64,000 bases of DNA, from assembly GCA_001632435.1 (NCBI GenBank), contig KV423975.1, positions 39,145 through 103,144 on the forward strand, written 5' to 3'. The translations under genes were made by a program, and so were the position numbers. The notes under the pieces are model-generated. The model was given only the letters and a program-made list of their open reading frames with translations. It ran no database searches and was not told the origin of the DNA. The stretch comes from Calocera cornea HHB12733. Its lineage: Eukaryota; Basidiomycota; Dacrymycetes; Dacrymycetales; Dacrymycetaceae. Positions within the stretch are counted from its first letter, which is position 1; every line of letters starts with the position of its first letter. Below are positions 43,766 through 63,649 of the stretch, piece after piece.

Positions 43766-45008
43766 CGTAGGAGGCGGTCGTTCGTGGTGGGGTGGTCGCG
43801 CGAGCCAAGGGCGAGGTGGGCGTAAGCTCGTGAGGTGAGGGGCAATGGAAGGCTGGGATGTGTGAGAGACGACTCAGACACCTTCAGGGGATGTTTTGAA
43901 GGCGTGTGCTGGCTGTCTTGTGCAACCAGCCATCCCGAAAGCTGGGGTGCCTTTTATGCGCCTCCTCAGGCTTGCCCCGTCGTCTCTGGATATTGAACCG
44001 GGGTAAATCACCGCCAGACGCGGAGCAAGCCACATGACGAAATTTTCAATGTCATGTCTCGCCGTGCAACCCCTTCTCTAGTGTGAAGAGAGGATAAGCA
44101 GGATCATCTGTCTAGGACTTTGCAAGCTAAACCGCCGAATTCGTCGGAGACAACAGCCAAGGCAGAGCTGCGGTGCTGCGGGGGCTGAAATGTCTAAGGG
44201 TCCCCTCTTTTGCTTCCTCCCGGTCTCGGATCAAGCACGACATCCGACGTCCACAATCCGTACATCAATAACATGAAGCAAGGGAGAAGCGCACTTGAGT
44301 CCTGTGGCCGGACATTGAAGGACTTCCGATCTTTGTGACAATCGTTGCTGCGCTTTGCACTCAGCAACCGTAGAGCGGAAGCAAACCTGGGTTGAGTGGA
44401 TACGAAACATAGGGAAGTTCCTGGCCAACGGAGTTGGTCCAGGTCTTGGGAGGCAGAATTACAACGGTTGTAAGGGTCCAAGTGATCGGAAGCATTTGTT
44501 CTAGAAGGTTCTTTGCGTCAGGTGGACGCGGAGGGACGCCCACTGATCGAGGGTTAGCTTTCGTGCCGAAAGACTTCGTGTCATATCAAGACTTGTGTCA
44601 TATCAATCACGTAGTTAGTATTTATTGAGAAAGTGCCGAGGGTGTTGTTGGAATTGGCATTTGAATTACAAGACAGGAACTACAGGAATACAGGAATAGG
44701 TTCAGTAGTGAGTGTCAGTGTGGCGTCTCTAGTGTATCAGTGAGACGCGTGGGGCTTATATGGCTGTCCTCAAGTGCAGTGTACTGTAATAGGGGCTAGG
44801 TTCTGTAGTGTTGAGAGTCACCGTGCACGGAGGGGATGTACAATGATGGCTGGTTAGGGTTTTGGCCAATGAATATAGGTGAAGTGTTATTCGGAGCGGT
44901 GCACGTAGGAGTACAGTGTACTATCGATATAGAGGTTGGGTAATAGGTGAAGGAAAATAGCGGAATGCCCTAGTTTTGGACATCCATGGATGATATCTGT
45001 TATACATT
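43766..45008. other. Gene-free junction between core DNA and the AT-richer block
   Basis: No conserved frame. Isolated GGAAGCAAA-type motifs occur near 44207, 44378 and 44487. To the right of about 44570 the sequence becomes visibly more AT-rich and stays so to about 63.5 kb. Confidence 0.5.
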
Positions 45009-46175
45009 TCAGTAAGGGAGTCTGTTGGTGATGGGACTGCTTGCCAGGTATACTAATGAGGCGTGATTGAGTTGAATGGTGTCGTTTATCAGTCGCTGCG
45101 ATGTTGTGCCGCACTCAACCCTCAGGTTGCCGCCTTTATCGATCTGGATGTTGAGGCTGCTGGCGATTTTGATGGCTGGGAGGAGTAGGCACATTGACGA
45201 ATTTCGATATCTGATGTTTGTGTTAAGTAACATGGACAGTACTGTTGTGATGTAGTGAGATACTTGAATGACATAGTATTGGGTATGTTGGCTTGAATAC
45301 AAATGTCGGGCCGGACCGTCCGCTCATTGTATGATGTATAGTCTGTATTCATAGTGATGGGGTTCGTGGGTATGAAACGGAGGAGCACAGTAGCTTGGGT
45401 AATGTGGGTGCTCAATATTGCTGCACGAAAAGCCTGTGGATCGATAGCTCGTTCGACGAGCCTGTGGGGACGTGAGATGGTAGGAGGGTATGTATAGATC
45501 GGCGTACAGATGGTCACGATCGAAGAGGGCATGTATGGGGTAGGGTATCTCTTGTACGTCGTAGGTAAATCGAAGGTGTACTTTGTGCTTGCTTGTGTGG
45601 GTACTGTGGCAGAGGTGAGCGGACTCGTGATTTCAGATGATGTGCATACAAGGAGAGTTCCAGTTTGTGTCCGGGTCCAGGGTAGGACAGCTGCAGTGAA
45701 AAGCGTCGTTTACGTTTGAGGAACTGTAACAGTGAGCTGTTGTCCATTGCAGTTGTATTAGTGGTTAGGGAGAAGCGAGGTGTGGTTGAATGCTGAGAGT
45801 CGGGTGCTCCGACGTAATGCTGGAGTGCTAGGGAGAGAGGATATAACTCTATGGTCGCTGTGTATGCCATATTGGGGAGTCGTGGGATGTCTGCCTTCCA
45901 TTGATCGAAATAGTCCTTTGGTAGATATATGCGCCCTATTATGTTCGGTGTTGGTAGAGTGGGAGGGAATGTCGGCCCACGAACCGCGGATATCGTCGTT
46001 CCTTGAGGATATGTAGATGCCCTCGGGGACTAGGTGGACATATGCGGTCTGAAGAGGTGTCAGTGTTATCCGATGGTCTTATTTGAGCAGAGGACAGCCA
46101 ACCCACGTCTGCTAAGAACATAGGGAGTATATTGCGAGTGAAGTGGTAGACGTCTGCTGAGTATGCTTGAAACGG
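45009..46175 (-). CDS. Rad1-like 9-1-1 checkpoint clamp subunit
   Basis: Six exons (46107-46175, 45985-46048, 45650-45935, 45508-45603, 45264-45461, 45009-45210) keep one frame for 305 codons; the start exon lies upstream, perhaps an ATG at about 46228. Sequence order matches Rad1: AYVHLVPEGIYISS, then IRGRIYLPKDYFDQW, a TIELYPLSLALQ strand, RFSLQLSYPGPGHKLELSL, HLLVERAIDPQAFRAAIL, and the C-terminal block CLLLPAIKIASSLNIQIDKGG that corresponds to the 'LKALALSSKVSIRTDERG' region of Rad1. Length (~305) fits. In the 9-1-1 ring Rad1 joins Rad9 and Hus1 on damaged or stalled DNA. The copy is highly diverged; family assignment rests on pattern order rather than strong identity. Confidence 0.7.
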
Positions 46176-46539
46176 CTAGAGTCCGGTAAGCAATCGGATA
46201 GGTCATTTGGGTGGGATGCAGACCATCGTACTCGTCGTATGAGCAGGACTGATGTTAGTCCTTAGGGCTTGCGGTAACACTGAGCATAGGCATACGGTGG
46301 TGTGTTGGAGGAGATCTTTATTATGGCTGGTTGTGGTTGCAATGAGAGCCAGACTGGATAAGTGTTAGTAGTGGAACAGGTGGTAGCGTCTGCCCTGGAT
46401 GCGTAATCGTTTGAACGGTGTCAGGGTTGGCGCCCGGCGGAAGCAAATGCTCGCGCAGTCATGGGCCTGTTCGGTTTACAATGCTGCATTGGTAGTACAA
46501 CCTGGTTAGGCACTCACTCGACTATGTTGCCTGCTGTTC

Positions 46540-47014
46540 TTATCGAAGTTGAAGACGATGCAGATGCACCAATGCACCCTGTGGTCCATAGGTCGGAGGG
46601 TGCACTTTTGGAGTGTATAGTTGGGGAGCGTTCAGAACGAGGGTCATCAGCCAGAGCTGAATTGGCTCGTCGGCAGATGTGGACAAGTGAAGAGTCATAT
46701 CTAGTGGAGGCTCAGATATGTCAGGGGTGCACATTGGCAGAGGGGGAGAGGTTGGTGAATTTGGTGGAGCATGCTGCTATGGCTCGCTTGAGGTGCGCAC
46801 TTACTTTCGGCCTGGTCGTCCAAGTTGTGGCTGAACCTGGTATGTTACTAGGGGCGTTACTGGTTGGGAACAGCGTGTTGCAAATGAAGGTGTGCATATC
46901 GTCGCGTTTGGTATACTGTGCTCACTGTGTCTGTCTTCTATACGATACTACTCTTATGGGCACCGATTGTACTTGGTGGTCGTCCTGGCTGCAATTATCG
47001 TTGATGTCTGACAT
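46540..47014 (-). CDS. Small unassigned protein divergent from the Helitron helicase
   Basis: A start at 47014 (MSDINDNCSQDDHQ) precedes one or two introns; the last exon, from about 46776, is Pro-rich and ends with MTLHLSTSADEPIQLWLM and GALVHLHRLQLR before TAA at 46540. The closing beta-strand pattern resembles the ends of the proteins at 54403-55770 and 58022-59103. Exact exons between 46776 and 46970 are unresolved. Its start codon lies about 40 bp from the left limit of the helicase frame, suggesting a very short shared promoter. Confidence 0.35.
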
Positions 47015-47052
47015 TCGCTGTTTGATGTGATGCTCGATGTGATGTTCATGTT

Positions 47053-50000
47053 GTGGATGTTGTTCTCTGTGATGCAGATGTACAGATTGTGCGTTTGGTT
47101 GGATCTGCTGATGATGATGGAAGTCGGCTGTCGATTGTTGGAAGGGATCTCGAGGATGTTTACAGATATGTTGGACCATCTATGTCCCTGCGAGCTGCAA
47201 TGTCGTCTGGCTGGACGAAGGATAATGGTTATGTATTATTAGAGGTCAGCGTCCTTAACTCGTTGTTGGAGGTGTATTCCTTTTTCAGTAGGAAAGACAT
47301 CGTGGAGCTGTGTGGTTTCCATGGCATAAGGGCCAGCCGTTTCACTAAAGGAGCCGCGAGACAAGTGCTCACAGACCATGCATGCTCGTCTTTGTGCAAA
47401 CGGGTGCCCTTTTACGCATTCAAGCCCATGCATATTCAACGTTCTGCTGCTTTTCCCGGTACATACCGTCATAATGGATCGCAGAAGCGGGTAGCAGAGC
47501 ATGATCATGGTGGTGCACGAAAGCGTATCCGGCTGAATAGAGACATTGACCAACCAGGAGCGAAGAGTTTCCCGCCGGATGAGAATAATGATTTGGTGCG
47601 TAGTATCATTGAAGAATATCAGAGTAAGGCGAGTCCTGAGTGGCTGAGGGAGGTCGCCTGTGCAGCATGTGGGGAACACATCAGTTGTGGGCTAGTTTCA
47701 AATGTCGCCGTCTCATCAGTTCCCTTTAGTCTACTGCGACCTGATGAGGGTTTTCCGGTACATTTATATCCTGCAACCTATTCCATTACTGAGTATGAAG
47801 GGGCGTTCTTGCACCCTAGAGGACTGTCGAGTTTGTGGAGGAAGGAAGGACATGTAATGCTTTGTCCCGGTTGCCGTAGAGATCTTATTATTAACAAGAC
47901 AATGCCCGCGTTAGCCCTGTGTAACAGATTCTACTACGCATATGAACATATGCCTGCAGAAGTAGCTGAGGCTTTTAAGCAGTGTACTTTTGTGGATTTG
48001 AGGTTGGTCGCTAGGTTCAGTGCCAGTAATATATGCTTTGCATATCGTGATGACCCATCTAAAGATGGTTTATTTGGGAACCATGTGTCTGGAGCTCAGC
48101 GGTTCTGTCGAGGAAATACTGTGATCTTACCGCGAGATCACATCAGAGTGGAGGATGTCTTACCACCTTCCGTGGATGTACTTAAGTCAGCCTTCACGAC
48201 TGTGTTTGCCGCAGCCGATGCATTGGACGAGATGGCAATCAGGAGACTAGCTCCTCTAAAGGCATCCAGTGCCCGGGTGCGGACCTTATTGAGCTTCCTC
48301 ATTTCTTGCAATTCCGCATATGCTAGTGGTGCTGGCAAAGATGGTGTGGTTGTTAGCGAGTCCAACCTCAGGGAGATATTTCTTGGGGAGGGCGAACAGG
48401 AGCAAGTTGGACGCGAGGATATTTTACCGGAGTGTATAGAAATCGGTCACCTAAAGAGTGTGTGCAATGATATGCAAACAGATATCGCGGGCCGCAATGA
48501 GTATGAGGGCATATCGGCGTCGGCAGAGGAGTTCTTTATGGAGGCGTGTGGCTTTGTGAAGGGTGATGTTTCCGGTGAAAAATATAGGTCTATGAAAGCA
48601 GAGTGTCTACAGCATTGCTTAGGTGGGAAGCCTTTCTTGTTAAGTCGGAGTGGTAGTACACCGGTAGTAGATCGGCAGAACCATTTGTTGCTTGGAGGAT
48701 TGTTTCCACATTTGGACCCCTTTAATATTGGTGGGTTTGATCATCCGCAGAGGCGGAAGAAGGTAGATATGGCAAAGCAGCTGTCTCATTTGTTGAAGTT
48801 GTATGATGGTCCTTTTGCAAGAGATGCTCAATTTGCCTTCATCTATCATAACATTCTGCAGAAGAGGCGAAGCACACTGGATACGTTCTTTCGCGTCAAA
48901 GAGAGAGAAGTGAGCCAGTTACTGCTGGATATTGGAAAGGTGCCTATCGACACATTTGGTAAATTGGCGGGGAAGCTGAGCGCGGAGCCGACTTACCAAG
49001 CTGAACAACGAGCCGAGAAACTGGCATTGAAAGTTCTGGAGCGTATGAACGTAGTTCGGCGGGATGTACCTGGAACTAATGGTTATAAGCGGGCAAGACG
49101 CAACGAGATCAGGTCGTTAATTTACAAGCTGGGTGCCCCTGCTCTGTATATTACCATTACTCCCACAGATATCGATAGTGCTCTAGTTGGTCTGCTTGCT
49201 AATGAGTCTGAAGACGGAAATAAAACCTGGAAAGAGGGAGAATCATACAGTTCTAAGATGAAGCGGGCAGCTAGGGTTGCGAGAAATCCTGCGGCCGCTG
49301 CGAGGTCGTTCCACCAGACCATGTCTCGTTTCATTGACATCATATTGCGCTATGGCAGGGGTGAGGGTTTATTTGGGGTATGCTCTGGCATTTATGGTAT
49401 GGTCGAGGCTCAGGGTAGAGGTACGCTTCATTGTCATATGTTGGTCTGGTTGGATGGACACGTGGGACCACAAGCAATGAGAGATCGCATGGAGCACGAT
49501 AGTGAATGGAAAGAACGCATCTTCAAGTGGTTGGAGAGACACATACACTGTGAGCTGCCCGGAACATCGAGTGTGGTGGGTGAGCCTGCAGGGCCTCTTC
49601 CTAAACCTAAGCATGTTGCCAGCGATGTAAATCCATGTACCCTTCCGGGACCTTCTATCTCTGATATGGATGCAGATGCGTTCTGGCCCGCATTTCATGC
49701 GCATGTGAAGGAGCTTGTAGAGGAATGCAATTGGCACGAACACAGATTGACGTGCTTCTCTCGGCTCAAGAAAGGTGCTTTAAAGGGTGATGCTACGTGT
49801 AGGATGGGTATCGATGGTACTACTAGGGCTGAGACTACAGTCGACCCTCAGTCCGGTTCCATCCAGCTTCGGAGGTTACATCCTCGTATTAATGAATACA
49901 ATGATGTGATCATGTTTCTCTTGAAGTGTAACATGGACATTCAATTTATTGGCTCTGGTGAAGGAGCTAAAGGGGCGATCCATTATATTACCGATTATAT

Positions 50001-52947
50001 TACGAAACCCTCTTTACCTACACACATTGGTTTGAATGCGTTGGGACTGGCGTTGCAAAAGGCTGGACCGGACGTTCAAGTGCTGGAAGGGCGCGACGCG
50101 AGGCTTCTCTTAAATCGATTAGTCAATGCAATGATGTCTCGTCAAGAGATGTCTCATCAGCAGGTGATGAGCTACTATGTGGGTGGAGGTGACGTTTATT
50201 GCATGCATCGATTCAGCGTACTTCACTGGGGGTCATTCGATCGGTTGATTCGAAAGTGGGAGAATGAAGAGATTATTCGGGTTGGGCCATGGGGTGTTCC
50301 CTCAGATAGTGACGCTGCGTGTAATGAGGATGAAGGTAATCGAGGTTCGGGAGATCCAGAGTACGTGCTTAGTTTTCGTCGGGAATCCATCACGGCGACA
50401 AACCAAGAATTGGATTACAGGGAGAGACCTAATGATACGGCCTTTGAGGTGTTGTGCCTCTATGATTTCATTGGTTCCACATATAAGGAGATATTTCCCA
50501 ATGCCGGTGACGAGGCCTCGGTGGGTACAGAACTCGGCATCGCAGATGGAGTAGGCCCCTCCGGGAATCGTGTAGAGAGGGAGTTCGCGCTTCGGAGGGG
50601 TCGACCTCGCTTGCCACGTGGTACCCTTGGCCTGAACCATCCCCAGAGAGGCACTCACAGACTTCGTCTGAGTGACAAGCCCATGGTACCTGTGATATTA
50701 GGACCGTCTCTCCCGCGGTGTGATCGATCGTTGGAGGAGAAGAATCAGTGGTGCCGAGCTGTTCTCATATTGTTTAAGCCATGGAGAACGTTGGGAGATC
50801 TGCGACTCCTTGGAGAAACATGGGAACAGGCGTATGACAGAACTGATTTCGGGGAGAAACATCTACAGACGATTAAGAATATTGGTGTTCTCAATGAATG
50901 TAGGGATGCGAGGGCTCATCGTACTACCGAGACTAATGGTGATCAAGTAGTATATTCTGGCAGCTTTGAGGGGGATCTTAGGGCCGATGAAAGGCTTAAT
51001 GGATCGGAGGATGAGTGGGATGAACATACTGTCGAGGGTTTGAGATATAGAAGACGGTTGGCTATGGTGGCTGCCACGGTCGATAGATACGTTGGCACGT
51101 TACCGGAATCTGATGGAACAGAAGAAATTGGATATCAGAGTTTGACTAACCCCTTTATGAGTGTGGCAAGACGGACAGGAGAGGATGGGGCGCAAGTAAA
51201 ACAGTTCTTGTCTGTTATGACTGAGCTGCGACGACAGCGCAGGCCTACTGTTGTGGAACGAGAGCATCACTTATGGAGCGCTGACGAACCAATGAGACCA
51301 CCCGAGGTTCGGTTGCAGGCGCTGGAGTTGGGTAGTTCAGTGAATGGTTCTGATGGTGCTGAGAGATTGACCACATTCTGTGCTCCTCTTGCAATTTCGG
51401 CTTCGCCTGTGGAAACCATTATTGACAGGTTCTCTTTAAGGAACAATGCAGATCAAACCCGTGTGTTAGACATCGTTGGCAAGCACCTAGCGGAGAGAAG
51501 CGCGGAGCAATTGTTGATGTATGTGTCTGGTGTAGGGGGCACTGGTAAGAGTCATGTAATCAAAAGTATCGTTGGGCTGTTTCAGCTGATGGGGCGGGAG
51601 CATAACTTGATGTTAAGTGCTCCTACTGGTGCAGCCGCGATCTTGATTAATGGCTACACTATTCATGCGTTAACTTTCCTACCGAAGTCTAAATTTAAGC
51701 CGGACTTGTCTGAGTTAGAACGCATCTGGCGGAACATAGATTACCTGATATTAGACGAAGTCTCAATGGTTTCGGCTTTGTTTTTGGATCAAGTGTCGGA
51801 ACGTATCTCTCAGGCTAAAGGCGTCTCAGATCTACCATTCGGTGGAGTTAACGTTTTGTTCTTTGGAGATTTTGGTCAGTTGAATCCAGTCAGGCAAGCA
51901 GCAGTGTACGCGTATTCGGTTACGAGCAATGTATCATTCTCGACAGCCCAATCATCACTCGGTCAGTCTGCTGTTAATGGGGCGAGGTTATGGAGACAGG
52001 TCAATCGCGTGGTCGAACTGAAGTATAGTATGCGGCACAGAAACGATCCTAAGTGGGCTAATTTACTTGGTCGCATTAGATTGGGAGAGGGTTGGTCGGG
52101 TGGTAGGCGTTCCCTGGATTGTGAGAGCGGAACAGGGCAGAATTATACGATGTCTGACATGGAGGTGTTGCGAAGCCGGGTACTTCAGCGTGTTGTTGAA
52201 CAGGACCCAAATATTATGAAGCAGTTTCAGGATGCACCTGTTATTACATGCACGAGGGAGATGCGAGACGAGCTCAATCGTGCCCTGTCTTTGGCACATG
52301 CGGCTAGGGTGCGGCAAGTGTTACACTCATACCACGCGAAAGATACCCAGGAGAGAGTTCATCTCATAGGGGAAGCACAGCAGAGAATGTGGCGGGCACC
52401 GTCCTCTGTGACCGGGGATGCTTTAGGCCGACTCCCTCTGTTTCTGGGAATGCGTGTCCTAGTTACGGAAAATATAGCTATATCAATTAATATAGTGAAT
52501 GGAGCGGAGGGAGTAGTTGTTGGTATTCGATATAGTGAAGATGTAATTGGGAACCGGTATGCGGATGTAGTGTTCGTCAACATTCCAGGTTGCGGTTTGG
52601 TCCACCCCTCCCTCCCAGAAAACGTCGTCCCTGTTGTTCCCGTACGTTCTTACTTTAAGTGGAGGGGAGATGGAGGAGTGATGTACAGAATTTCGAGGGT
52701 CCAGGTACCTTTGGTTCCGGCGTATTCTTTGACCGATTATAAGAGTCAAGGACGCACTTTTCAGAGAGCCGTACTCGATCTTGCTAGCTGTCGTTCTACT
52801 GCAAGCATGTATGTGATGCTGTCGAGAGTCCCGACGCTCGATGGTGTATTGATTCTTCGTGAATTTAATAGTAAACATGTATATGGACGTATCGACCCGG
52901 CGTTGCGTAACGAGTTCAGTAGGCTGAAAGTTATAGCGACTCACTGA
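47053..52947 (+). CDS. Helitron-type replication initiator/PIF1-like helicase
   Basis: One uninterrupted frame of about 1,960 codons. Around residues 285-340 is a DUF6570-like block (MPALALCNRFYYAYEHMPAE). The Helitron Rep domain follows: ALYITITPTD (~690), GMVEAQGRGTLHCHMLVWL with the HUH-type HxH (~790), and the paired tyrosines HYITDYITK (~976). VMSYYVGGGDVYCMHRF is also typical. The C-terminal third is a PIF1-family SF1 helicase: GVGGTGKSH Walker A (~1493), YLILDEVSM Walker B (~1564), FFGDFGQLNPV and ALTDYKSQGRTF-like motif near the end. No in-frame ATG occurs before 47182, so either translation starts there (1,921 aa) or an upstream exon exists. This enzyme nicks and unwinds DNA for rolling-circle transposition. 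Apparently intact. Confidence 0.93.
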   Translation: MDVVLCDADVQIVRLVGSADDDGSRLSIVGRDLEDVYRYVGPSMSLRAAMSSGWTKDNGYVLLEVSVLNSLLEVYSFFSRKDIVELCGFHGIRASRFTKGAARQVLTDHACSSLCKRVPFYAFKPMHIQRSAAFPGTYRHNGSQKRVAEHDHGGARKRIRLNRDIDQPGAKSFPPDENNDLVRSIIEEYQSKASPEWLREVACAACGEHISCGLVSNVAVSSVPFSLLRPDEGFPVHLYPATYSITEYEGAFLHPRGLSSLWRKEGHVMLCPGCRRDLIINKTMPALALCNRFYYAYEHMPAEVAEAFKQCTFVDLRLVARFSASNICFAYRDDPSKDGLFGNHVSGAQRFCRGNTVILPRDHIRVEDVLPPSVDVLKSAFTTVFAAADALDEMAIRRLAPLKASSARVRTLLSFLISCNSAYASGAGKDGVVVSESNLREIFLGEGEQEQVGREDILPECIEIGHLKSVCNDMQTDIAGRNEYEGISASAEEFFMEACGFVKGDVSGEKYRSMKAECLQHCLGGKPFLLSRSGSTPVVDRQNHLLLGGLFPHLDPFNIGGFDHPQRRKKVDMAKQLSHLLKLYDGPFARDAQFAFIYHNILQKRRSTLDTFFRVKEREVSQLLLDIGKVPIDTFGKLAGKLSAEPTYQAEQRAEKLALKVLERMNVVRRDVPGTNGYKRARRNEIRSLIYKLGAPALYITITPTDIDSALVGLLANESEDGNKTWKEGESYSSKMKRAARVARNPAAAARSFHQTMSRFIDIILRYGRGEGLFGVCSGIYGMVEAQGRGTLHCHMLVWLDGHVGPQAMRDRMEHDSEWKERIFKWLERHIHCELPGTSSVVGEPAGPLPKPKHVASDVNPCTLPGPSISDMDADAFWPAFHAHVKELVEECNWHEHRLTCFSRLKKGALKGDATCRMGIDGTTRAETTVDPQSGSIQLRRLHPRINEYNDVIMFLLKCNMDIQFIGSGEGAKGAIHYITDYITKPSLPTHIGLNALGLALQKAGPDVQVLEGRDARLLLNRLVNAMMSRQEMSHQQVMSYYVGGGDVYCMHRFSVLHWGSFDRLIRKWENEEIIRVGPWGVPSDSDAACNEDEGNRGSGDPEYVLSFRRESITATNQELDYRERPNDTAFEVLCLYDFIGSTYKEIFPNAGDEASVGTELGIADGVGPSGNRVEREFALRRGRPRLPRGTLGLNHPQRGTHRLRLSDKPMVPVILGPSLPRCDRSLEEKNQWCRAVLILFKPWRTLGDLRLLGETWEQAYDRTDFGEKHLQTIKNIGVLNECRDARAHRTTETNGDQVVYSGSFEGDLRADERLNGSEDEWDEHTVEGLRYRRRLAMVAATVDRYVGTLPESDGTEEIGYQSLTNPFMSVARRTGEDGAQVKQFLSVMTELRRQRRPTVVEREHHLWSADEPMRPPEVRLQALELGSSVNGSDGAERLTTFCAPLAISASPVETIIDRFSLRNNADQTRVLDIVGKHLAERSAEQLLMYVSGVGGTGKSHVIKSIVGLFQLMGREHNLMLSAPTGAAAILINGYTIHALTFLPKSKFKPDLSELERIWRNIDYLILDEVSMVSALFLDQVSERISQAKGVSDLPFGGVNVLFFGDFGQLNPVRQAAVYAYSVTSNVSFSTAQSSLGQSAVNGARLWRQVNRVVELKYSMRHRNDPKWANLLGRIRLGEGWSGGRRSLDCESGTGQNYTMSDMEVLRSRVLQRVVEQDPNIMKQFQDAPVITCTREMRDELNRALSLAHAARVRQVLHSYHAKDTQERVHLIGEAQQRMWRAPSSVTGDALGRLPLFLGMRVLVTENIAISINIVNGAEGVVVGIRYSEDVIGNRYADVVFVNIPGCGLVHPSLPENVVPVVPVRSYFKWRGDGGVMYRISRVQVPLVPAYSLTDYKSQGRTFQRAVLDLASCRSTASMYVMLSRVPTLDGVLILREFNSKHVYGRIDPALRNEFSRLKVIATH

Positions 52948-53069
52948 AGTGTTTTATTACAGTGTTCGCTGATATGAGACTGAATAGCTATTAGCTATTG
53001 GGACTGAGGGGCCAAGGTATTCCATCCGGTGAGACAGCTCCTACATATAGGTTGAAATTGCCAGGTAGG

Positions 53070-54011
53070 TCAATGGGTAACGGTACTATTTGGAATCCAC
53101 CCCAGTTGATGCAAGGCTGATAGTGCAGCTATCTTATAGGCCTCTCTCTTGGACTGACCTACACCGTGACCAGAAGGCTCCGTATCGTCTTCCACTTTCA
53201 TACCAGTGAGCTTGAGCATAGACTTTTGTGGATAGATTACGTACAATATATATAGCCTGTCCATGTCAAATTGTGACCGGGACCTGTTGATGTTGCGAAT
53301 TCTCTGATCTGTAACCCTCGGTGAGTTGCAAATTGTTTGAGGTAGAACAGGGGTCGTATTTGTATGTCATGAAAGGTGACTTCGGTAGGATGGCGTCGTT
53401 GAGAATCGTCAATGTCGACAGGGGATGCATTTGGGTCCAAAGGGAACGCGAGTGGAGTAGGTGTTGAGGAGGTACTGAGGCCGGAGTAAGGCTGGTGGTG
53501 GCCGCTATCTGGGAGCTGGGGGAGCACTGGTTGAAATATCATTTCCGATGGTAGGAAAGTGGTCATCCAGCGGCTGAGTAGTGCACGTGCGAAAGCCGAT
53601 TGAGACAGGAGGGCGAGCGCTCCAAAGTATGCGTCCAGGTGTGCGGTGGATATGCTGTCACCTTCAGATAGCAATATGTGCTCTGTCAGTGTGTCGCTTG
53701 TTTGGGCCCATTTGGAGTACTCGTTGCATTGATATAGTTGAGATTCCAATCGCTTGGGGAAATGTTGTCAGCACTAGCAGATGGGGCTGGTGGGAGTAGA
53801 ATACCAGGATAGAGCTCAGGGACTCTGTGGGATATTTGGTTTTGAGTGCACCAATAGAGGTAACGAGTAGAAAATGACGACCGAGCTCTCGGAGTGCCTG
53901 GGTTGATATTTCGGAATGTAGGCAAGGTATCCATTGGGAGGTGACGCCAATCCCCCGGATCACGTCCCAGAGCTTTTGATCGTCGATCGGTTCGTTGAAC
54001 CTCGAATTCAT
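53070..54011 (-). CDS. RNase III-fold plus dsRBD protein, catalytically defective
   Basis: Exon 1 (53805-54011) and exon 2 (53752 to about 53240) share a frame; a last exon ends at 53070. Exon 1 contains TQALRELGRHFLLVTSIG, where active RNase III has LEFLGD, and exon 2 has TAHLDAYFGALALL, where active enzymes have DVFEAYIGAL. Three of four metal-binding acids are missing. A double-stranded-RNA-binding domain follows: LKQFATHRGLQIREF, TGPGHNLTWTG and GHGVGQSKREAYKIAALSAL. It may resemble mL44-like or other pseudo-RNase III proteins. The join between exons 2 and 3 (53235-53262) is one base out under any GT-AG choice I tried, so a frameshift or missed site remains. Confidence 0.6.
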
Positions 54012-54402
54012 GACGAGGAGTACCGAAGGTGGGTGCCACAGATTCCTGGTAATGTGTCGCAGTGTACACTATGCTATATAGGTTTCAGGGCGTCCAGGCA
54101 TTGTCGTATACCAAGGAAGTCTTGGTTCTTGAGGTATTCCGGTGCATGCGTTATATGCGCTGAGGCGTTGTGTTGATCATCTAGTAGTCTGTAGTATTTC
54201 CTCATCTATCCTCATCCACCCTGCCGCAGTCTGTGGTATTGCCTTGCCCGATAGGGTCCCAGCGGGGGCCTCCCTTTATAGCAGGTCCGACGGGAAGCAG
54301 TAAAGTTGCACATATATATTGTTTGTAAGGTGTACGAATGCACAGACCTGTATTGGTGAGGAAGAGGTATATATTTGGGGCGTACGCCTGTGCACAGATC
54401 AG

Positions 54403-55770
54403 TTACCAGCTAACATCGTTCTGCTCTTCATCCATCGGCCCCGGAATGTCTCTAGCGCCAGGGACAAGGATGTTCACCGTCTGTAGTTGGAACTCAACGG
54501 ATCGAGTCTTGCCCTCACCACGGCGGGAATGAATTCGCATTTCGAGCACGACCAGATCACCCCGATTGATGGAGTCGACCGAGCATTGCTCTCTGTCTCT
54601 GATGCTCCGCTCGGCTAGATACACGTTTGTGAATAGGTTGCCCTGAAGAACGGTGTTATCACCGTGGTATGTATGCAATAAGCGATATGGATCACTCACA
54701 GGAGATTCACGGGGTGCGCCATAGGAGGTCTGCCATCTGCTTGCTTGGATATTAAGGAAACTATCTTGTGTCGTGCCTATAACTGTTAGCATCCTGGCCT
54801 AGACTGAAAAGAAGAGGAACTCACGGTCGTTGGGCAAGCTGTATTCGTTGTACAGGCGAGAGGCAGCCACAGAATCCAACGTCGTGAGAGGTTTAATCAC
54901 GATCGACACCCGCCGCAAAGGCAGCCCATCCACGTTGCGAAAATCGGTCGAGATGACGACCCCGGATACATATACCTTAATCGCACTATTGCGTTTCCCA
55001 ACGACGAAGTTACGCATGTCCAAGAACGAGTCCATGCGACCGAACTCCAAGTCGAAAGGAACTTTCGTAATGTAGTATGTGCCCCGCTGAGCATCCGCCT
55101 CTTTCCGCATACTCAGGATCCTTCTGTACTCGATGAGTAACACCGAGGAGAGTCCATTATGGACCTACCTCTGAATAGGACGTGGTATCTTCTCAAGGTC
55201 TGGCGGGTCTGGACGGTCACTTTCAGACAGTGAGATCCTGAGATCCAATGAGTGGGCTGAGTGACGTAATGTTATGTCCAACTCACGAAGATATCGATTC
55301 GTCATCCGATTCCACAGTGTTACTTCCCTCCGTATTCGAAATTGTATTGGAATCCGTTGCAGTGCTGATCACAAAGGGTCTTAATCCAGTAGGTTCGGCA
55401 TCAAGACTAGGAAGCAGATAAGACGTTATGAGGATGATATGAGGAGTAACATACCCGACTGGGTGACTCGTGGGAACTTCTTCTGGAATCAAGACATCTT
55501 GTGGATGAACGAGGAACGGATCATTGGTAGAATCCTTTGCGCTTGACATCGGTGAGTATGAAGAAGTGGCTGCGGTTATGATTTACATACGTGTCGTACC
55601 TGTACTCCTCGGTATGACTAAGGGGTTCAGCAGGAGGGCTCGAAGGCGGAGGATCTGCAGCGTCCATTCTAGAGGTCCGTTAGAACCAATCAGAGTACTT
55701 CTTGCATATGTACGCACTTAGCTTTCTTCGCCTTGTCGTGCTCTCCTGTACTCTTGCGCTTGGGTGCCAT
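54403..55770 (-). CDS. Unassigned protein, seven exons
   Basis: Exons 55718-55770, 55600-55668, 55455-55541, 55287-55406, 55169-55237, 54825-55123 and 54403-54776 give 356 aa in one frame. The N-terminus is basic (MAPKRKSTGEHDKAKKA, a likely nuclear signal), followed by Pro/Ser and acidic low-complexity sequence to about residue 150. The C-terminal 200 residues look like a folded beta-rich domain (IKVYVSGVVIST, RRVSIVIKPL, RGDLVVLEMRIHSRR, SVEFQLQTVNILVPG). The last strand pattern recalls an OB-fold, but I do not recognise a family. Consistent intron frames argue for a real gene. Confidence 0.65.
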
Positions 55771-55820
55771 GCTTCTTGGGTGCGGTTCGGAATAAGATGG
55801 TTGGAATAGGTGTTGGTGGC

Positions 55821-56165
55821 TCACGACCCACTCGCAGTTATAGAGCGTCTTATACTTTCGCAGACATAGTCCTCATGTGATATGGATAAGACAGGTGAAT
55901 ATGCTATCATGGGTTTCGCATGTTGTACGTGGTGTGCCAAGTGGTGTGAAATAGAATCGAATTTACTTAACATGATGTGCAGCCTCTCCTGTCCTGACAG
56001 GGTCGATGGAATGGGTTCGGATGTGACACGCACGCCATCTATAATGGAGCAAAACAGACGGTGGCGAGGAACCCCTAGAAGTTTTGCCCATGTGTCGCAC
56101 ATGACGTGGTCCGCGTCGCGCGTCAATGAAGGGTCCACTGGGAGACTGTTGCACCATGGAAGCAA
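55821..56165 (-). CDS. Small unassigned ORF
   Basis: A single frame of 114 codons (MLPWCNSLPVDPSLTRDADH ... SHEDYVCESIRRSI) 50 bp upstream of the previous gene on the same strand. Composition looks protein-like (balanced, amphipathic segments), but I cannot assign a family; it may be a fragment or an exon of a larger gene. Two GGAAGCAAA motifs lie just upstream at about 56158-56180. Confidence 0.35.
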   Translation of the reverse strand: MLPWCNSLPVDPSLTRDADHVMCDTWAKLLGVPRHRLFCSIIDGVRVTSEPIPSTLSGQERLHIMLSKFDSISHHLAHHVQHAKPMIAYSPVLSISHEDYVCESIRRSITASGS

Positions 56166-56261
56166 ATTGAGGGAAGCAAATAGAGCTAGCCCCTAAACCC
56201 ACACCGCAAGCGTAACTGTAAGTTAATATGAGTGCAATATTAATATAGAGTCAAATGTAAG

Positions 56262-56302
56262 TAATATTAGGTCATAGCTCATCAATGCAAGAGCAAGTTG
56301 GA
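56262..56302. repeat. Left arm of an inverted repeat pair
   Basis: AATATTAGG...ATCAATGCAAGAGCAAG matches the reverse complement of about 57400-57447. The pair encloses the heptamer satellite and could mark the ends of an insertion of roughly 1.2 kb. Confidence 0.6.
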
Positions 56303-56959
56303 ACCACGAAGATAGTCTTTGAGGAAGAGGAAGAGATGGGAGATGGAATATGGGAAGGAATTCAAGGCAGGTAGCACACAGTTAGAGCAAAGAGAGTTGA
56401 TTTCTTGCAGTCTATATAATTTGTACTTGAATACACATCAGGTGTGCAGTCATAATTAGTGTTGGGGAGAGGGTGTTGGGTTAAGGGTTAGCTGTATTTT
56501 GATTGTATGGCAGTGCAAATAGCCTCTACACTGAACTGTCTTTATCCTGAAAGCATAATGTGGGCCTCATGACATGCATCACATGGGTGAAATGTACTCA
56601 GAGGCCCTCCACTCCCAGAGTTCCCCTTGCTTCATTATATACTAGGGTAACCTGGCTCACCTTGTTCATCATATTTGGTCCCAATTGGACCTTTTCTTGT
56701 TTGGTACCCATCTTACAGTACCTGTCTTGCAGTGCCCATCTTACAGACCTACCCATCTTGCATGATTGGGCTACCAAAGAGGGGGAAGAAACATCATCCA
56801 AAGACATGAACTACGATGTACAGTAGTGGCATCAGGTTCTGTGCCATTGACATATATATACCTCCTTCATTCACTGCTGTACCCCTGTGTCTGGTCACTG
56901 TGGCACACAACATATCAATTTCCCTTAGTCTAACTGTATTGGCCTACCCTTGAATGCCC

Positions 56960-57382
56960 TCCCGTCTCTCGTCTCCCGTCTCTTGTCTCCCGTCTCTTGT
57001 CTCCCGTCTCCCGTCTTGCGTTTCCGTCTTGCGTATCCCATCTTGCGTCTCCCATCTTGCGTCTCCCATCTTGCATCTTGCGTCTCCCATCTCCCGTCTT
57101 GCATCTCGCATCTTGCGTCTTGCGTCTCCTGTCTCCTGTCTCCCGTCTGCCATCTCCCATCTCCCGTGTTGCGTCTCGCATCTCCCGTCTCCCATGTTGC
57201 GTCTCCTGTGTCCCGTCTCCCGTCTTGCATCTTGCGTCTCCCGTCTCCCATCTTGCGTCTTGCGTCTCCCGTCTCGCATCTCCCGTTGTCTTGTGTCTTG
57301 TGTCTTGTGTCTTGTGTCTTGTGTCTCGCTTCTCACATCTCCTCTCTCCCGTCTCCCATCTCCCGTCTCCTGTGTCCCTTTT
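56960..57382. repeat. Heptanucleotide satellite (YRTCTYS)n
   Basis: About 60 tandem 7-mers such as CGTCTCC, CGTCTTG, CATCTTG, CATCTCC and TGTCTCC fill the interval, with a run of TTGTGTC variants near 57292-57326. All six frames are open because no unit forms a stop; those frames are not genes. Confidence 0.92.
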
Positions 57383-58021
57383 GAAAGCTATTTGCCAAAA
57401 TTCCAGCTTGCTCTTGCATTGATTTATTGAAGCCTAATATATTTTATATTTCAATGCACACTAATTGGGCAGTCATGTTAGTGTTAGGGTTGGGGTATAG
57501 GGTTAGGGTTAGCTTTATTTTGCTTCTATTGTGTGGCAGCGCACATGGCGCTTCCGCTCTGAGGGGACCCTTCTCTTGTGCGAAAGGACGAGTCCACCCC
57601 GCACAGCCACTGGACCCTTGCCCGCACGTGGGCGAAACATGTGCGGGTTCATGGCCACGGTCTGATCTGCTTCATTATAGATGTTACAGAGAACGACCGG
57701 GCTTCTATCTATATTGATTAGACTTGCACGGCAACTTGAAGCTGTAGCGTGGTTTGTTTGTTCTACACATCTCATTGCACAATCTACATAAGGGGCATCG
57801 CCATTTATGCATCTATATTGATGTATGCGAACGGTGACGGATATATGTCCTGAAGCCAATCCTTTGCCCAAGGGGCCGACAGGGTGCAGAACGCCGTACG
57901 ATAGCATGGCCACAAATGGGCTCTGGAGTATCGGTTATATAACCGGTCTACACTCTATTCGTACACTGGACTGACTTGTGCGCGTTCTTGCACCAAGCTT
58001 AAGGCCATTGCATTGGACGAC

Positions 58022-59103
58022 ATGTCCTTGTTTATCCAAGGTAAGCGTCTGGACTTGAGATGAACTGTTTGACCCACTAGTTTATTTCTCCAGGTACTGA
58101 CGGCGTACTATTGCGTGATCGATGGGGCTTTCCAGAAGCCACTCTAGCATCGGACAACCCGGCTCATTTGTCCACGTTCCCTCCTTCCTACGAGGGTGTT
58201 TGCCATCTCCTTACGATTTGCTCGAAGACGAACATCATCGATAAAGGACACCACACTGACATCATGGCCGATCTGGGCGACAATGGCTCCTCTTCCCTTG
58301 CGATTCTGCGACTTCAAGGCTTCCTGAAGCATACCAAGATTGGTACGTATGGTAATTGGGATGGGTAAGCTTAGTGTGCTGTAGTGGTTGTGCGTCGCGG
58401 CTAACTCAACTAGGAATTCTGATAACTGCATGTCTGCGATCAACGCCATTCACCTGGAGCCCGGTTCCGGCGCGTTTGGCGCTATATGGGTGGATACATG
58501 GAGGGCTATTGATCATGTTCGCAGGTGGTATGGTGCGATGACCCATGCGATATGTGCAGATAGAGTGAGGATTAGTGATATGGACAGCATTCGTTGCTCG
58601 CGTCGTGTCTTCTCGCGGGTGAGCAGAGCAAACGTGTCTTGTTGGATGATGTCTAACGTTATGACAGTACCGCAACGAGTCTTATATCGCATCCGGAAGA
58701 GGGAATCAGATGCTCGATGCGGCTTTGACCCGGGTTAGCCATCAATGGTACCCAGAGGTCCCTGCTCTATTGGGTGTACGCCGAAGCGATGGTCGGGTGT
58801 CCCATGGACATCCTGCCGTCTTTCATGATGGCGATTTCGTTGACATCGCGATTTCATTCGATGTGGTTGAACGCCCTGGCAACACGTTCAACCTGTATCT
58901 CAAGTTGGAGCACCTCGTCCAATTGGCTGCCCATGATAGTCTGTATTCATCTGTGAAGGCTTATCTCCTTCTTTTGTTGGTCACCGCTGATATGTTAACA
59001 GTCTACGCTTCACATACGTGGGATCCAAATTCCTTCTACAACCATGAATGTACAGCGTGCAACCTTGGAGTTCGTAGAAGACGAGGTGGAGGCATCCCCT
59101 TGA
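58022..59103 (+). CDS. Unassigned protein, five exons
   Basis: Exons 58022-58040, 58094-58346, 58414-58618, 58668-58952 and 59002-59103 give 287 aa. N-terminal region: MSLFIQGTDGVLLRDRWGFP. The middle contains AINAIHLEPGSGAFGAIWVD, and the C-terminal part a beta-rich stretch (HDGDFVDIAISFDVV, FNLYLKLEHLVQLAAH). It closes with an acidic tail, EFVEDEVEASP. The penultimate intron (49 nt, CTGAT branch site) is preferred over read-through, because read-through inserts a hydrophobic LLLLL segment. No family recognised; its strand pattern resembles the end of the protein at 54403-55770. Confidence 0.6.
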
Positions 59104-59219
59104 AGAGATCATCGCTTCATTATCAGTCTGTACCAGTCATCTTTACCAGCCAGAATGAAATTCGGTCCATCTCTGAGAAACGGCTGTGAGCAGTCCTCCT
59201 TAAGATAGGAGACGGATAT

Positions 59220-59980
59220 CTGACATTCTCACTGTCTATGAGGAGCTACGAAGAACTTTAAGAGCTGCACATGTAGCGGTTGTAACATCTTACCTGTTCA
59301 GCAGGAGAGAAGTCCGTCGGAAGACTGAGCAGTTCTGCAACTCGCTTCGGTGTTTGACCGTGCAATATATCCGCAAGCCCTTTACATGCCAGCAAGCTGT
59401 TTCTGAAATGAGCTCCTGTATCGGAATGCCATGTGAATGTATGTACACAAGACCGCGTATGTCGAGGTAATCTGCAGTCTGTAGAGTGTGTTCAGCAGTG
59501 ACTCTGATTGATGTTTATATTTCACCTCAAGTATAGCAAGTCTGACTTTATTGTCAGTCCGGTATACGAGCGTGGACGTATACTCACATTTCGCGCGAAT
59601 CTTGCCCAATGTAGCCCATCTCCCAATCGGAGAAAACGTGGTCTGGTCCGGCCTTTTCCGCGGGATCGCTGTTCTCGAAATGGTTGCACCAAACCAGCAC
59701 CTTGTGCAATAAAATGAGTCTATCGGAATCTGAGAGATGTGGATTCACTTGCCTTTGTTAGCATTGTAGATGACACATTGGGTAGGGGAATGCCAGTAGA
59801 ATTGTCATACGCAGCTAGTGACGAGCTCAGTGTTCGGAATCGTTTTATGCGGTGAACAGTACCATGAATACAGTCCATCACCACCCCGATATGTCTTGCC
59901 GTTTCTGTGGAAATCTCAGATCGTTGACCCTCGCGAGATATAAGGATAATTTTGGTAGGTTCGAGGTGGATGGTTGTCAT
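59220..59980 (-). CDS. Skp1-like protein
   Basis: Exons 59863-59980, 59753-59814, 59588-59700, 59526-59541, 59447-59478 and 59294-59396 give 148 aa before a final exon that I cannot fix (end near 59190-59293). Skp1 signatures in order: KIILISREGQRSEIS, GIPLPNVSSTMLTKVLVWC, DWEMGYIGQDSREILAILE, TADYLDIRGL and GLADILHGQTPKRVAELL followed by PTDFSPAEQ. Skp1 bridges cullin to F-box proteins in SCF ubiquitin ligases. This copy is diverged from the usual near-invariant sequence. Exon 4 is 16 nt, and the intron after exon 2 begins AAG|GCAAGT, a textbook GC donor. Its 3' end converges on the gene at 58022-59103. Confidence 0.8.
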
Positions 59981-60208
59981 CTTGCTGACCGTAAGTGCAA
60001 TGATTAGGGGTTGTGATACTCAAGTCGTATTTATGCAAAGCAGAATTGTTGTTCCAAGGAGAGATGTGTGAATATTGTGTGTGCACATCAGCCCTAGGGT
60101 TTGGGATGTTGGCGATACGTTGACACCGTATCTTACGGAATACTTCATGGCATAGAGGAAAATTAGTAGCTATGAAGTATATGTGCTTTTTCTGTCATAA
60201 CGAAGGGT

Positions 60209-60852
60209 TTGATCTCGGAAGCAGGGTCTCTTCTTCCAATTGGCTTACGCACCGCCTCGCGCACAGTAAGCCTGATTGGGTGGCGTGTGGACTCGAATGC
60301 GTATGGCTGGGTGTCCCTAACCTGCGTTTATGACCAGGGGAGTCGTGCAATCGTGCACTACACCGCTTCTTCTGTCTGCACGTACGTTGGGAGACAGACT
60401 GCTCTGACTTATGCCTCTGGATTTCTTGACAATATACTACTGTGAGATGGCTGATATCGCATGCACCTGCGCATCATCGAGTGAATGGTCCCTCCGAGGC
60501 GGATCGAGATGGAATGTACCTTAGTACTGCCTCCTATGTCTATCACAGTTCCTGGGCTATCCATTTGCTCTTGATTGGTGAATCTGGGGTGGCTGCGCTC
60601 GACTGTATGAGCAACCTCTGGTCTGTGGATCCGACTGGATGTGGAATAGGACCCAGCCGCAAAGCCATGGTCGGTCACGTGTTCCCTCGTGCGTGATTAC
60701 CTGTCCAGCTGCATTTGGCGTGGTCCCCTCCTTCGCACCAACCACCACCGTGAAGCTCTCATTGGTGGCACTGGACTACAATCATAATCTCAAAGCCAAT
60801 CCAATAAAGTCTGGGATTGTTATGGAAGCTGTACTGCCGGTGGGGGATGTAT
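60209..60852 (+). CDS. Possible unassigned multi-exon gene
   Basis: Pieces in compatible phase can be chained: a segment ending near 60267, one at about 60339-60382, one from about 60444 containing GMYLSTASYVYHSSWAIHLL, and a last one with FGVVPSFAPTTTVKLSLVAL to about 60852. No start codon fits cleanly, and one intron would be only about 35 nt. It may be the 5' part of the Rad9-like gene or a separate diverged gene. No family recognised. Confidence 0.3.
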
Positions 60853-60902
60853 CGAGTGAGTACCTCTACGTTCCACTGTACCTTCTGTCTGTATGCGTGC
60901 TG

Positions 60903-63242
60903 ATGTCGTTGGAAGCATTGGTCCAGTCACTCTCGTGCTTGTCAATGTATGCGGATGACATACAGCTACTCGTATCGATGGACTCGGTATGCAGTCAGGT
61001 TCTACTCACGTTGTATGAGGGTGCTCAATGTTTCCTAGATGAAGATCTCCGCTACAAACTTATCTAAGTCGGTATATGGTCGTCTCGAACTGGAATCCTC
61101 TTTCTTCAGTTCCTACACGGTTCACTCGACGGATGCATCTAGTCCTCCTACACTCAGGCGTCAACGTCAGGATTTGCAAATCAAAGCATCGGTCAAGGCG
61201 AAGCTGCTGTTGTCTTATCTCAGACGTGCCACCGTAGAGCGTGGTGTCAAGTATGTGAAGATATCTATAAGGGATCCTTCCCTCCATACCGGATCATCCA
61301 CCGCAAAAGACTTCTCAGATGACGAGGACGGTCGGCTCGAGACTAGGTTGTTGTTAGATTTCATTTGCGAGAAAGGTATGTGGTCGTTAACTATGTCAGA
61401 GGGTAGCGACCTAACGCATATATGTGGCTCAGACGTCGAAAAGCGACATCGTATACTTCTGGAGGATGTAGATGAGCTATTGGCACCTGCTCCTCCGGAG
61501 GATGGGAAGGAAAGCGTGGTCGTGCTGAACAACTCGAACCTCCGTGACTTGTTAGGGCGCATACAACCTGCTGCTGGAAAGTCGGATGGACAAATCACGT
61601 GTGAGCTGAATCCTACGTCTATGCTATTACGTGTAACGGCTGGTGAGCGTCCTATTCTATGTGTTTCTAGGTGTGTACTGAGCCCATATCACTGGTTGCA
61701 GATGGTGCAGAGTTCTGGCGGGAGATAACTGCTGAGGGTGAGGACCTTGAGCGCTATGATGTACAAGGACCTTCGATTACGGCAGCGTTCCATATCAGAG
61801 AGTTCGCTGTGAGTTCTTTCCTGTCATTTGATTTACTCCGATAATAATTGATGTATAGGCGTCCCTTTGCTTCGCTCGTGATATCTGCAAACACCTCAGT
61901 CTTACGTTTCATGGCTCAGAACGGATCCTAATGCTGGACGTGCGACCGAGCTATCCGGAGGAGAAGGAACTCGACAATTGGCAGTTTCGTGCATACTTTG
62001 CCACCGGCCCCGGCTTGTATCCTGTGACCGGCCGCCGACGAAAGCGTGAAAGGGATGATGAGCATGTTTTGCTCTCTAAAAGGCCGAGGTATCTGGAATT
62101 CTCAAGCGGAAGGTCCAACATATCCATCAATTCCTCGAAACATGATGCCAGCATAATCACTGCAAGCTCTACTCCCGTGCGCAAGACCGTTCTTACGTCT
62201 CTACCACAGCAGGACACTACCATTGAAGGTGGTACACCCCATAATGCTAAGGCTACAACATCTCAGTTCCAGTCCATGCGTGTCCCTCGGTTCTCGCTGC
62301 CGGTTGTATCCACCCCCCGCGCTGGTACTTCATCGTTGAATAATAGAGCGAACGAAATTCACTCGACAACATTCGGATCTACTCAAGATGCTCTGGCTTC
62401 CATACATCCCTCTCGAACCACTCTTGAGCGTCTCACCTCCGTTGGGGAGCAGCCATTCGATAATGTGGTTGGAACGAATCGGAGGGAAAGGTCCAACCGA
62501 GGGGTCAATTCGAACACGAAGACTGTGGCTACTGGTGTGGCATCTGATTCGTCTGAAACCGTTGCAGAAGCCACAATGCCGAGCAATCATTACGTGCAGC
62601 ACGATAGTCAAGTTATCACAAGTCAGGTCCAACCAAATGCACCGTCTCAAGGCAGTCCCGGTGCTTCCTACCGATCAATCTCTAGCTTTGATTTCGTCTC
62701 CCAGGCGAACCGTCTGGAAAGAGAAAACTCAGCTGCGACACTTGAAGCTATGGTTAAACTGCAACATGCATACCATGAATCGGTCGCGGATGACGACGAC
62801 CACCTGGACGAGTGGGCGTCACTACCTAGTGGTGTTCAATCTGACATTCAGCAAGAAGATGGATGGACGGGCAGAGGTCATCCTCTTTCAAACATCGATC
62901 GTTCTATAGGCAACCTGCAAAATGACGCTTCGCCCCTCATATCCTCGGTCGAGCATGAAAATCTCGGACCCCTTACGACTTCCAGCAACCCTTCTCGCAC
63001 GGCACACAACCATAGGGATTCCAAGCACATTCCAGTGGAGAATAGAGTCAGGTACACCATCCGTGGTCCACCGGTGAGTCCCTTCCGTGTCTGGGGAACG
63101 GCGCTAATTTCCCACTATGCAGGTGCTACCGGGTGCTCAAGAAGTGAGACGTAGCAGGTATGCCCGATTGGATCGTCTGAATGATGGAACATCGTCCGCC
63201 GAGCCTGAGTTTTCGCAAACTCAGAAGAAAAGTAGAGGATAA
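60903..63242 (+). CDS. Rad9-like 9-1-1 checkpoint clamp subunit
   Basis: Exons 60903-60986, 61039-61642, 61702-61808, 61859-63073 and 63123-63242 give 709 aa. The N-terminal clamp domain matches Rad9 in order: LEALVQSLSCLSMYADDIQL, ISATNLSKSVYGRLELESSF (Rad9 'ATNSSKSAYCRF'), ASVKAKLLLSYLRRATVERG, and the second clamp domain EDLERYDVQGPSITAAFHIR then EFAASLCFARDICKHLSLTF (Rad9 'YDVYEPPIPIAFHLREF'). From about residue 300 a 400-residue Ser/Thr-rich tail follows, with a KRERDDEHVLLSKRPR nuclear signal, as expected for the Rad9 phospho-tail. Rad9 pairs with Rad1 and Hus1 to signal DNA damage. It is strongly diverged but apparently intact. Confidence 0.82.
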
Positions 63243-63649
63243 TGTATGTATAACCTGGCTGGTCTCAAAAACGTACTTCTGGGAAGCGGTATAGCCCTAC
63301 TGATAATGAATCTGCTTTGTGGACGAGGTGCAAGCATGTATTGGGAGTAGATTACGTCGGGCTGAGTTGCGTTCTGGCTGATGGACTGTGATTTTTCAGG
63401 TTTTGTACAAGAGAACGATTATCATTTACGTATCATACGCATGTCCTATAGTTTTATACATGGCTAATAGAACATGCGTGCAGCAGTATTTGGGGGTGTA
63501 TGCGGTGGAAAGGAACATCTGACGCAGCTAGTGTCTGACCGTCCCTGTGTTGGTTGTAGTTCGTCGAACAGGACAGCGTGAAAGATCGGAGATATTATGA
63601 GTATAGCATGCACGTATAGTAGTTATGTGATAATACAGTCAACGATAGG
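63243..63649. other. Intergenic, no gene seen
   Basis: AT-rich flank between the Rad9-like gene and the tandem repeat; nothing recognisable. Confidence 0.45.

Follow-up and report, generated by a model that had tools for sequence, protein, structure and literature searches.

A giant Helitron2-type element of Calocera cornea and its Rad9-like and Rad1-like genes

The stretch of DNA analysed here (the window, 64,000 nucleotides) is C62:39145-103144 of Calocera cornea HHB12733, a genome of 32.1 Mb in 302 contigs (C numbers below). Calocera is a dacrymycete (Dacrymycetes) and not an agaricomycete, as an earlier note on this DNA had supposed. The window contains the 5' part of an element of ~41.5 kb (C62:83562-125044), which begins at window position 44418 and continues for ~22 kb beyond the window end. 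Judged from its sequence, the element is a Helitron2-type rolling-circle transposon. Clamp genes of the Rad9-like (Rad9L) and Rad1-like (Rad1L, copies a and b) kinds and further cargo genes, among them a SKP1-like gene (SKP1L), almost certainly sit inside this mobile Helitron. The wider reading is that a giant Helitron2-type element took up host genes for checkpoint and ubiquitin-ligase functions and retained them, and that its hybrid clamps blunt the checkpoint; as a whole it is offered tentatively and falls somewhat short of probable. The principal features are as follows.

44418..44482, plus strand: 5' terminus, hairpin TCCTGGCCAACGGAGTTGGTCCAGG and ~40 bp, with a T directly before it
46159..45009, minus strand: Rad1L copy a, exons 46159-46107, 46048-45985, 45935-45650, 45587-45264 and 45210-45009, start uncertain
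47053..52947, plus strand: Helitron Rep/PIF1 replicase-helicase, intact frame, 1964 amino acids
60822..63242, plus strand: Rad9L, six exons, 716 amino acids, Ser/Thr-rich tail
C62:123.5-124.75 kb (beyond the window), plus strand: Rad1L copy b, Pfam Rad1 51.6 bits

Both ends of the element recur together in a short sequence elsewhere in the genome. At C39:8850-8914, 65 bp are identical to window positions 44418-44482; these are followed by 315 bp and then by 37 bp identical to C62:125008-125044. C39:8850-9266 (~417 bp) is a short non-autonomous relative with both ends of the C62 element. Because it carries the identical 5' 65 bp and 3' 37 bp, it is read as derived by deletion, which places the C62 element at 83562-125044. 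Searched as DNA, the 137 bp that end at C62:125044 match C62 and C39 only. End-pattern searches found no other termini inside C62:83.6-125.0 kb, of which 2355 N directly beyond the window end (an assembly gap) are unseen. The earlier note had associated the clamp genes with a transposon; the termini and the C39 derivative place them inside the Helitron and not merely beside it.

The 5' end is shared more widely. In a comparison of the window, C28 and C8, ~60 bp are the sole conserved stretch upstream of Rep, with nothing significant further out, and the conserved sequence starts with the hairpin YCCTGGCCAACGGAGTTGGTCCAGG. With up to three mismatches, the 5'-end pattern is present at 13 places genome-wide (backwards control, 0). 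A T precedes the 5' end in all eight of these that were read, and CCTAT is present at the 3' end in four of four; this is consistent with insertion at T^T, and no empty site was seen. Two non-autonomous copies of 538 bp (C92:10827-11364 and C140:164-701, 98% mutual identity) have ends of the same kind. An exact 14-mer at C42:131808 is matched to no element end, and its pattern is present at 37 places against 5 in the backwards control.

The Rep/PIF1 frame is intact, as the earlier note had stated. It matches Helitron_like_N (2.4e-30), PIF1 (1.2e-21) and DUF6570 (6.1e-16) in Pfam and contains HCHM, ITDYITK and GGTGKS, presumably motifs of a Rep/helicase frame. The window Rep is 51-62% identical to the C8 and C28 Reps. 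Several characters correspond to Helitron2. The Rep (HUH) and the PIF1-type helicase lie within one protein. An asymmetric terminal inverted repeat is present, with CCTGGCCAACGGAG at the 5' end and its inverse CTCCGTTGGCCAGG at C62:125010, ~22 bases before the 3' end. Hairpins fold at both termini (folding without a shuffle control). The AP-type endonuclease domain of Helentrons has no Pfam match in Rep at E 0.1, and the ends and flanks lack the canonical Helitron1 features (5'-TC, 3'-CTRR, A/T insertion). In the available text of PMC5148889, FoHeli, a Helitron2 of Fusarium oxysporum, has a Rep with a PIF1-type helicase, an asymmetric terminal inverted repeat and hairpins at both ends; Helitron2 insertion is by T (TTTT^T/C) and that of Helentrons by TT.

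On the Rep strand, G exceeds C across window positions 44418-53000 (skew 0.236). The surroundings of the C28 Rep have a skew of 0.22 and those of the C8 Rep a weak one, 0.079. This skew could reflect single-strand exposure. A Helitron end near 54 kb, where the skew stops, was rejected in view of the C39 derivative.

The Rad9-like gene with a Ser/Thr tail keeps the identity given to it in the earlier note; the five exons from 60903 are replaced by six from 60822. All five introns are GT-AG and 49-60 nt long. Pfam Rad9 matches the raw window frame at 4.1e-9. The NCBI model of this gene (P0008) matches PF04139 at 6.1e-19 and 68.9 bits, over the cut-off of 25 bits. The tail comprises 393 amino acids from residue 401 of P0008 and keeps eight SQ/TQ. 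FTPxF[KR]D, which is C-terminal in P0010 and P0011, is not in the window Rad9L tail; such a predicted tail would fit altered signalling. A PDB sequence search with Rad9L gives no match. In a fold search with a low-confidence model, the best 50 of 801 matches are all PCNA, 9-1-1 or herpesvirus PF-8 entries. In total, 433 matches have E <=0.001 (best E 1.7e-8), and among those listed the template modelling (TM) score by query is <=0.16. The listed matches lend model-based support to the clamp identity of Rad9L, short of proof.

The Rad1-like gene that the earlier note placed at 45009-46175 is also retained as such (23.4 bits, with a homologue at 51.6), with five exons on the minus strand (46159-45009) in place of six. 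All introns in this splice model are GT-AG. The Pfam match of copy a spans profile positions 10-119 of 257 only. Copy b, which is homologous to copy a, covers nearly the whole Rad1 profile (8.7e-14). No Rad1 was detected in the window by the unspliced genome scan, and Rad1L was recovered via a weak match (L010) ~20 kb beyond the window end. A PDB sequence search with copy b gives no match. With the two Rad1L queries, four places are found genome-wide: C62 twice, C86 and C23, with none in C28 or C8. At C23:204500-211500 (L052), Rad1L adjoins an F-box-like leucine-rich frame (by eye), and the sole Rep place of that contig is ~105 kb away.

The host RAD9 is at C27 (P0010) and is 84% identical to C. 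viscosa RAD9 and 57% to that of Dacryopinax. The window Rad9L does not take the place of the RAD9 orthologue, C27 being 84% identical to C. viscosa RAD9 and the window copy 45%. Identity to host RAD9 is 45% for the window copy, 81% for C8, 31% for C86, 30% for C28 and 28% for C13. Host RAD1 is at C222 and host SKP1 at C18. The HUS1 family (PF04005) is found at C169 only (unspliced genome scan, E 0.1); the earlier note had suggested looking for a Hus1-like gene nearby. Separate host RAD9, RAD1 and HUS1 genes are present, and the element genes are therefore extra copies, which bears out the earlier note in treating them as something other than the only RAD1 and RAD9 of the host. Since the Hus1 family is found at C169 only, any element clamp would need host Hus1.

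Besides Rep, the element holds at least ten further genes. The earlier list missed the SKP1-like gene, a dsRBD-like gene and the two conserved genes X1 and Y. The remaining features are as follows.

46461..47030, plus strand: small open reading frame before Rep, kept in C8 (45% over 110 amino acids), no Pfam match
53073..54068, minus strand: X2, dsRBD-like gene, splice model approximate, conserved in C28, C86 and C8
54403..55224, minus strand: X1, conserved gene, function not assigned, 13 loci in the genome
58081..59100, plus strand: Y, conserved gene, function not assigned, no Pfam match
59289..59980, minus strand: SKP1L, exon joints approximate
63667..64000, no strand: 127-bp tandem repeat, runs past the window end, with more repeat after the gap at C62:105.5-105.9 kb

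The SKP1-like gene belongs to the SKP1 family by Skp1_POZ (8.7e-11) and Skp1 (7.3e-5), both over cut-off, and it matches 33 PDB sequences named SKP1 or synonyms (best 2e-15). For X2, the dsrm match is below cut-off in the window copy (0.03) and over cut-off in the C28 copy (1.3e-5); weak matches are to PKR and RNase III. The X1 model is 100% identical to NCBI model P0001 (CALCODRAFT_483846, 339 amino acids), which starts further upstream. X1 has no PDB sequence match and nothing over the Pfam cut-offs. In the window the order is Rad1L a (-), small open reading frame (+), Rep (+), X2 (-), X1 (-), Y (+), SKP1L (-) and Rad9L (+). Beyond the window follow the G genes, an F-box gene with three open reading frames, and Rad1L b (+). 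The G genes (C62:106.6-113.6 kb) have no Pfam match over cut-off and are accompanied by a Pif1-type fragment. The F-box gene is over the Pfam cut-off (6.2e-5), and the three open reading frames after it have no match over cut-off. A CTCCCGT-type minisatellite at 56959-57371 (within 56727-57684) recurs across many contigs with 68-91% identity.

The Rad9L block is present in four elements (window/C62, C28, C8 and C86), each of which has both a Rep and the 5' hairpin, and related genes follow the block order in C28, C86 and C8. In C28 and C86 the block reads Rad9L (-), SKP1L (+), Y (-), X1 (+), X2 (+). The window block is therefore inverted relative to these. In C28 the block stands between Rep and the G genes. 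In C8, Rad9L, SKP1L, Y and X1 are ordered and oriented as in C28 and C86, with an X2-like piece between SKP1L and Y. The stretch from the F-box gene to Rad1L b is also present in C86, and Rad1L and Rad9L co-occur in two of the four Rad9L elements (C62 and C86). The possibility that C86 lacks a Rep was rejected, since a Rep frame begins there at 8532 and continues up to a gap of 7373 N. An ordinary intron (four GT-AG options) accounts for a frame break in the C86 Rad9L. The C28 Rad9L (C28:17225-19306, minus strand, L001) is one 694-amino-acid frame through three places where relatives have introns or alignment gaps. X1 is on a contig with a Rep at 12 of its loci and without one at C82. C. viscosa has four X1 proteins.

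Profile searches give 36 Helitron Rep places (37 with C86). Of these, 17 (18 with C86) belong to a long family, classed by the length of the Helitron_like_N match. The Rad9 family (PF04139, all contigs) has six places. Four of them lie <=15 kb from a Helitron Rep, with a binomial probability of 1.2e-6 for 18 Reps or 2.0e-5 for 37, under a 15-kb limit set after the data were seen. With the 36 profile places alone (without C86), the count is three of six (7e-4). This is in line with the earlier claim that the pairing of clamp genes and replicase exceeds chance, for which the enclosing termini are a stronger argument than the binomial. At C13:175571-178816 (L005), a diverged Rad9L is beside a PIF1-like frame on the opposite strand; searches of C13 for Helitron_like_N, X1 and the 5' hairpin gave nothing.

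Along 2.2 kb of DNA that takes in introns and ~130 bp upstream, the C8 Rad9L is 80% identical to host RAD9, and it has the appearance of a host RAD9 captured recently together with its introns. In the Rad9 tree (10 of 16 Agaricomycete Rad9 proteins used, to limit size), the C8 Rad9L and host RAD9 join before C. viscosa (support 89/96 and 90/95 in two runs), and the C28 and C86 Rad9L form a separate clade (100/100). This branching pattern favours at least two captures from the host. The amino-acid change between C8 and host is mostly on the C8 branch (0.24 vs 0.02). The approximately unbiased (AU) test, from which the long C13 branch was excluded, gives p values of 0.10, 0.44 and 0.33 for three groupings and does not discriminate between capture numbers. 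The NG86 ratio of nonsynonymous to synonymous change (dN/dS) for the C28 and C86 Rad9L domain is 0.253 (299 codons), and by this estimate these copies are constrained. For C27 and C8 it is 0.166 in the domain (220 codons) and 0.457 in the tail (278 codons).

The cargo probably serves the element and is not just carried along. If it is, interference with the checkpoint is favoured, somewhat less firmly, over a processivity clamp. Across the three readings, checkpoint interference ranks first, passive freight second and a processivity clamp third. The earlier note proposed that a clamp could help the element in polymerase recruitment or checkpoint escape, both of them putative roles. In the proposed mechanism, Rep would nick one strand and the helicase would displace a single strand tens of kilobases in length. 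Single strand and 5' junctions are where Rad17-RFC loads the 9-1-1 clamp (Rad9-Rad1-Hus1), firing the ATR-type checkpoint. Rad9L and Rad1L may take the place of the host subunits and pair with host Hus1, giving hybrid clamps at 5' junctions. Their diverged surfaces and the Rad9L tail would weaken or redirect the signal, and the very long intermediate would survive. SKP1L, the F-box proteins and the dsRBD protein may in addition act against the ubiquitin and RNA-silencing pathways of the host. The element shares two of the three 9-1-1 subunits with the host by sequence family; unlike those of the host, its copies are extra, diverged (Rad9L 45% to RAD9), transposon-borne and without a Hus1 copy. 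That the transposon encodes a variant clamp (Rad9L, Rad1L and host Hus1) with a SKP1/F-box arm, that this rewires or holds off the checkpoint during a >40-kb single-stranded rolling-circle intermediate, and that the clamp gene was captured more than once, is together a possible account, somewhat less likely than not.

Several observations weigh against this interpretation. The AlphaFold models of Rad9L (predicted local distance difference test, pLDDT, 34.9; five sequences) and X1 (pLDDT 33.8; no fold match at E 0.001) are poor. Rad1L a lies just under the Pfam cut-off of 24 bits (23.4 bits, 3.7e-5). No Hus1-like gene was found in the element by the unspliced PF04005 scan at E 0.1. Rad9L is detected for 4 of the 18 long-family Reps and Rad1L in two of those four, and the Rad1L at C23 is without a nearby Rep. 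The 3' end of this element is supported by a single derivative, C39, and with up to one mismatch it was not found for C28, C8 or C86. The AU test does not reject all four Rad9L as one clade (p 0.10). The dS between C28 and C86 (1.5) is near saturation, and the C27 and C8 ratios (0.166; tail 0.457) include the host branch.

Passive cargo is rather unlikely, though it survives best among the alternatives. Here, end-bypass during rolling circle would have picked up RAD9, RAD1, SKP1 and F-box genes with no service to the Helitron. Gene capture by Helitrons is known (PMC4289320 and PMC6431247, available text), the C8 copy with its introns and ~130 bp upstream resembles a plain capture of host RAD9, and gene content differs among element copies. 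However, the long frames are intact with canonical introns, the same block is retained in four diverged elements, and the C28 and C86 Rad9L show the constraint given above. One element also holds two subunits of one clamp, plus SKP1 with F-box.

It is unlikely that Rad9L and Rad1L instead act as a processivity clamp, tethering Rep/PIF1 or host polymerases while the long element is copied and leaving the checkpoint untouched. Although they belong to clamp families by sequence and by the fold matches listed, 9-1-1 is a signalling clamp and not a replication clamp, no Rad9L is detected for 14 of the 18 long-family Reps, and the SKP1/F-box partner set suggests host manipulation. Several transposon proteins do bind host clamps, according to the available text of PMC5371812. 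That a shorter Helitron, with its end near 54 kb, inserted by chance in a host gene island is very improbable: the strong skew stops there, the 4.7 kb that follow X1 in C118 yielded no further block gene and two of six Rad9-family genes (C27, the host gene, and C13) have no Helitron at hand, but C39 unites this 5' end with a 3' end 41 kb away, no further terminus was found between them (2355 N unseen), and the block recurs in four Helitrons with four of six Rad9-family places by a Rep.

The C62 element can be set beside other transposons, each as far as the available text of its source describes it. FoHeli resembles the C62 element in its Rep/PIF1, terminal repeat, hairpins and short non-autonomous copies (PMC5148889), and the C62 ends are consistent with its T at the insertion point; the C62 element differs in being ~41.5 kb long and in having ten or more additional genes, some of them of Rad9, Rad1, SKP1 and F-box type. 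The HELPO1 elements of Pleurotus ostreatus, in which capA-capF were captured, are likewise basidiomycete Helitrons with genes downstream of RepHel, but these number one to four and are of unknown or retroviral type (PMC4289320); the words rad9, skp1 and checkpoint are absent from the main text of that paper. Helentrons with OTU or tegument-type deubiquitinases also join a rolling-circle transposon to a ubiquitin-pathway function (PMC9741609). In these the protease domain is inside Rep, whereas the C62 element has a separate SKP1L and F-box and a Rep without a detected endonuclease. Fungal TET/JBP dioxygenase transposons, which include Helitrons, likewise carry a host-type accessory gene in several lineages, with a proposed anti-silencing role (PMC12730594); theirs is an epigenetic enzyme, and the C62 element has clamp subunits. 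No description of a Helitron paired with Rad9 or Rad1 was found in a search that left most subscription papers and preprints outside. The term rad9 does not appear in the main texts, as available, of PMC12730594, PMC4289320, PMC6431247, PMC9741609 and PMC10799480.

Genes captured by Helitrons are often seen as freight. Here, long intact genes, with two clamp and two ubiquitin-ligase parts, are present in one bounded element. With it, fungal Helitrons would span a wider range of size and cargo than known so far. It raises the testable question of whether large rolling-circle transposons may carry virus-like counter-measures against the host DNA-damage response.

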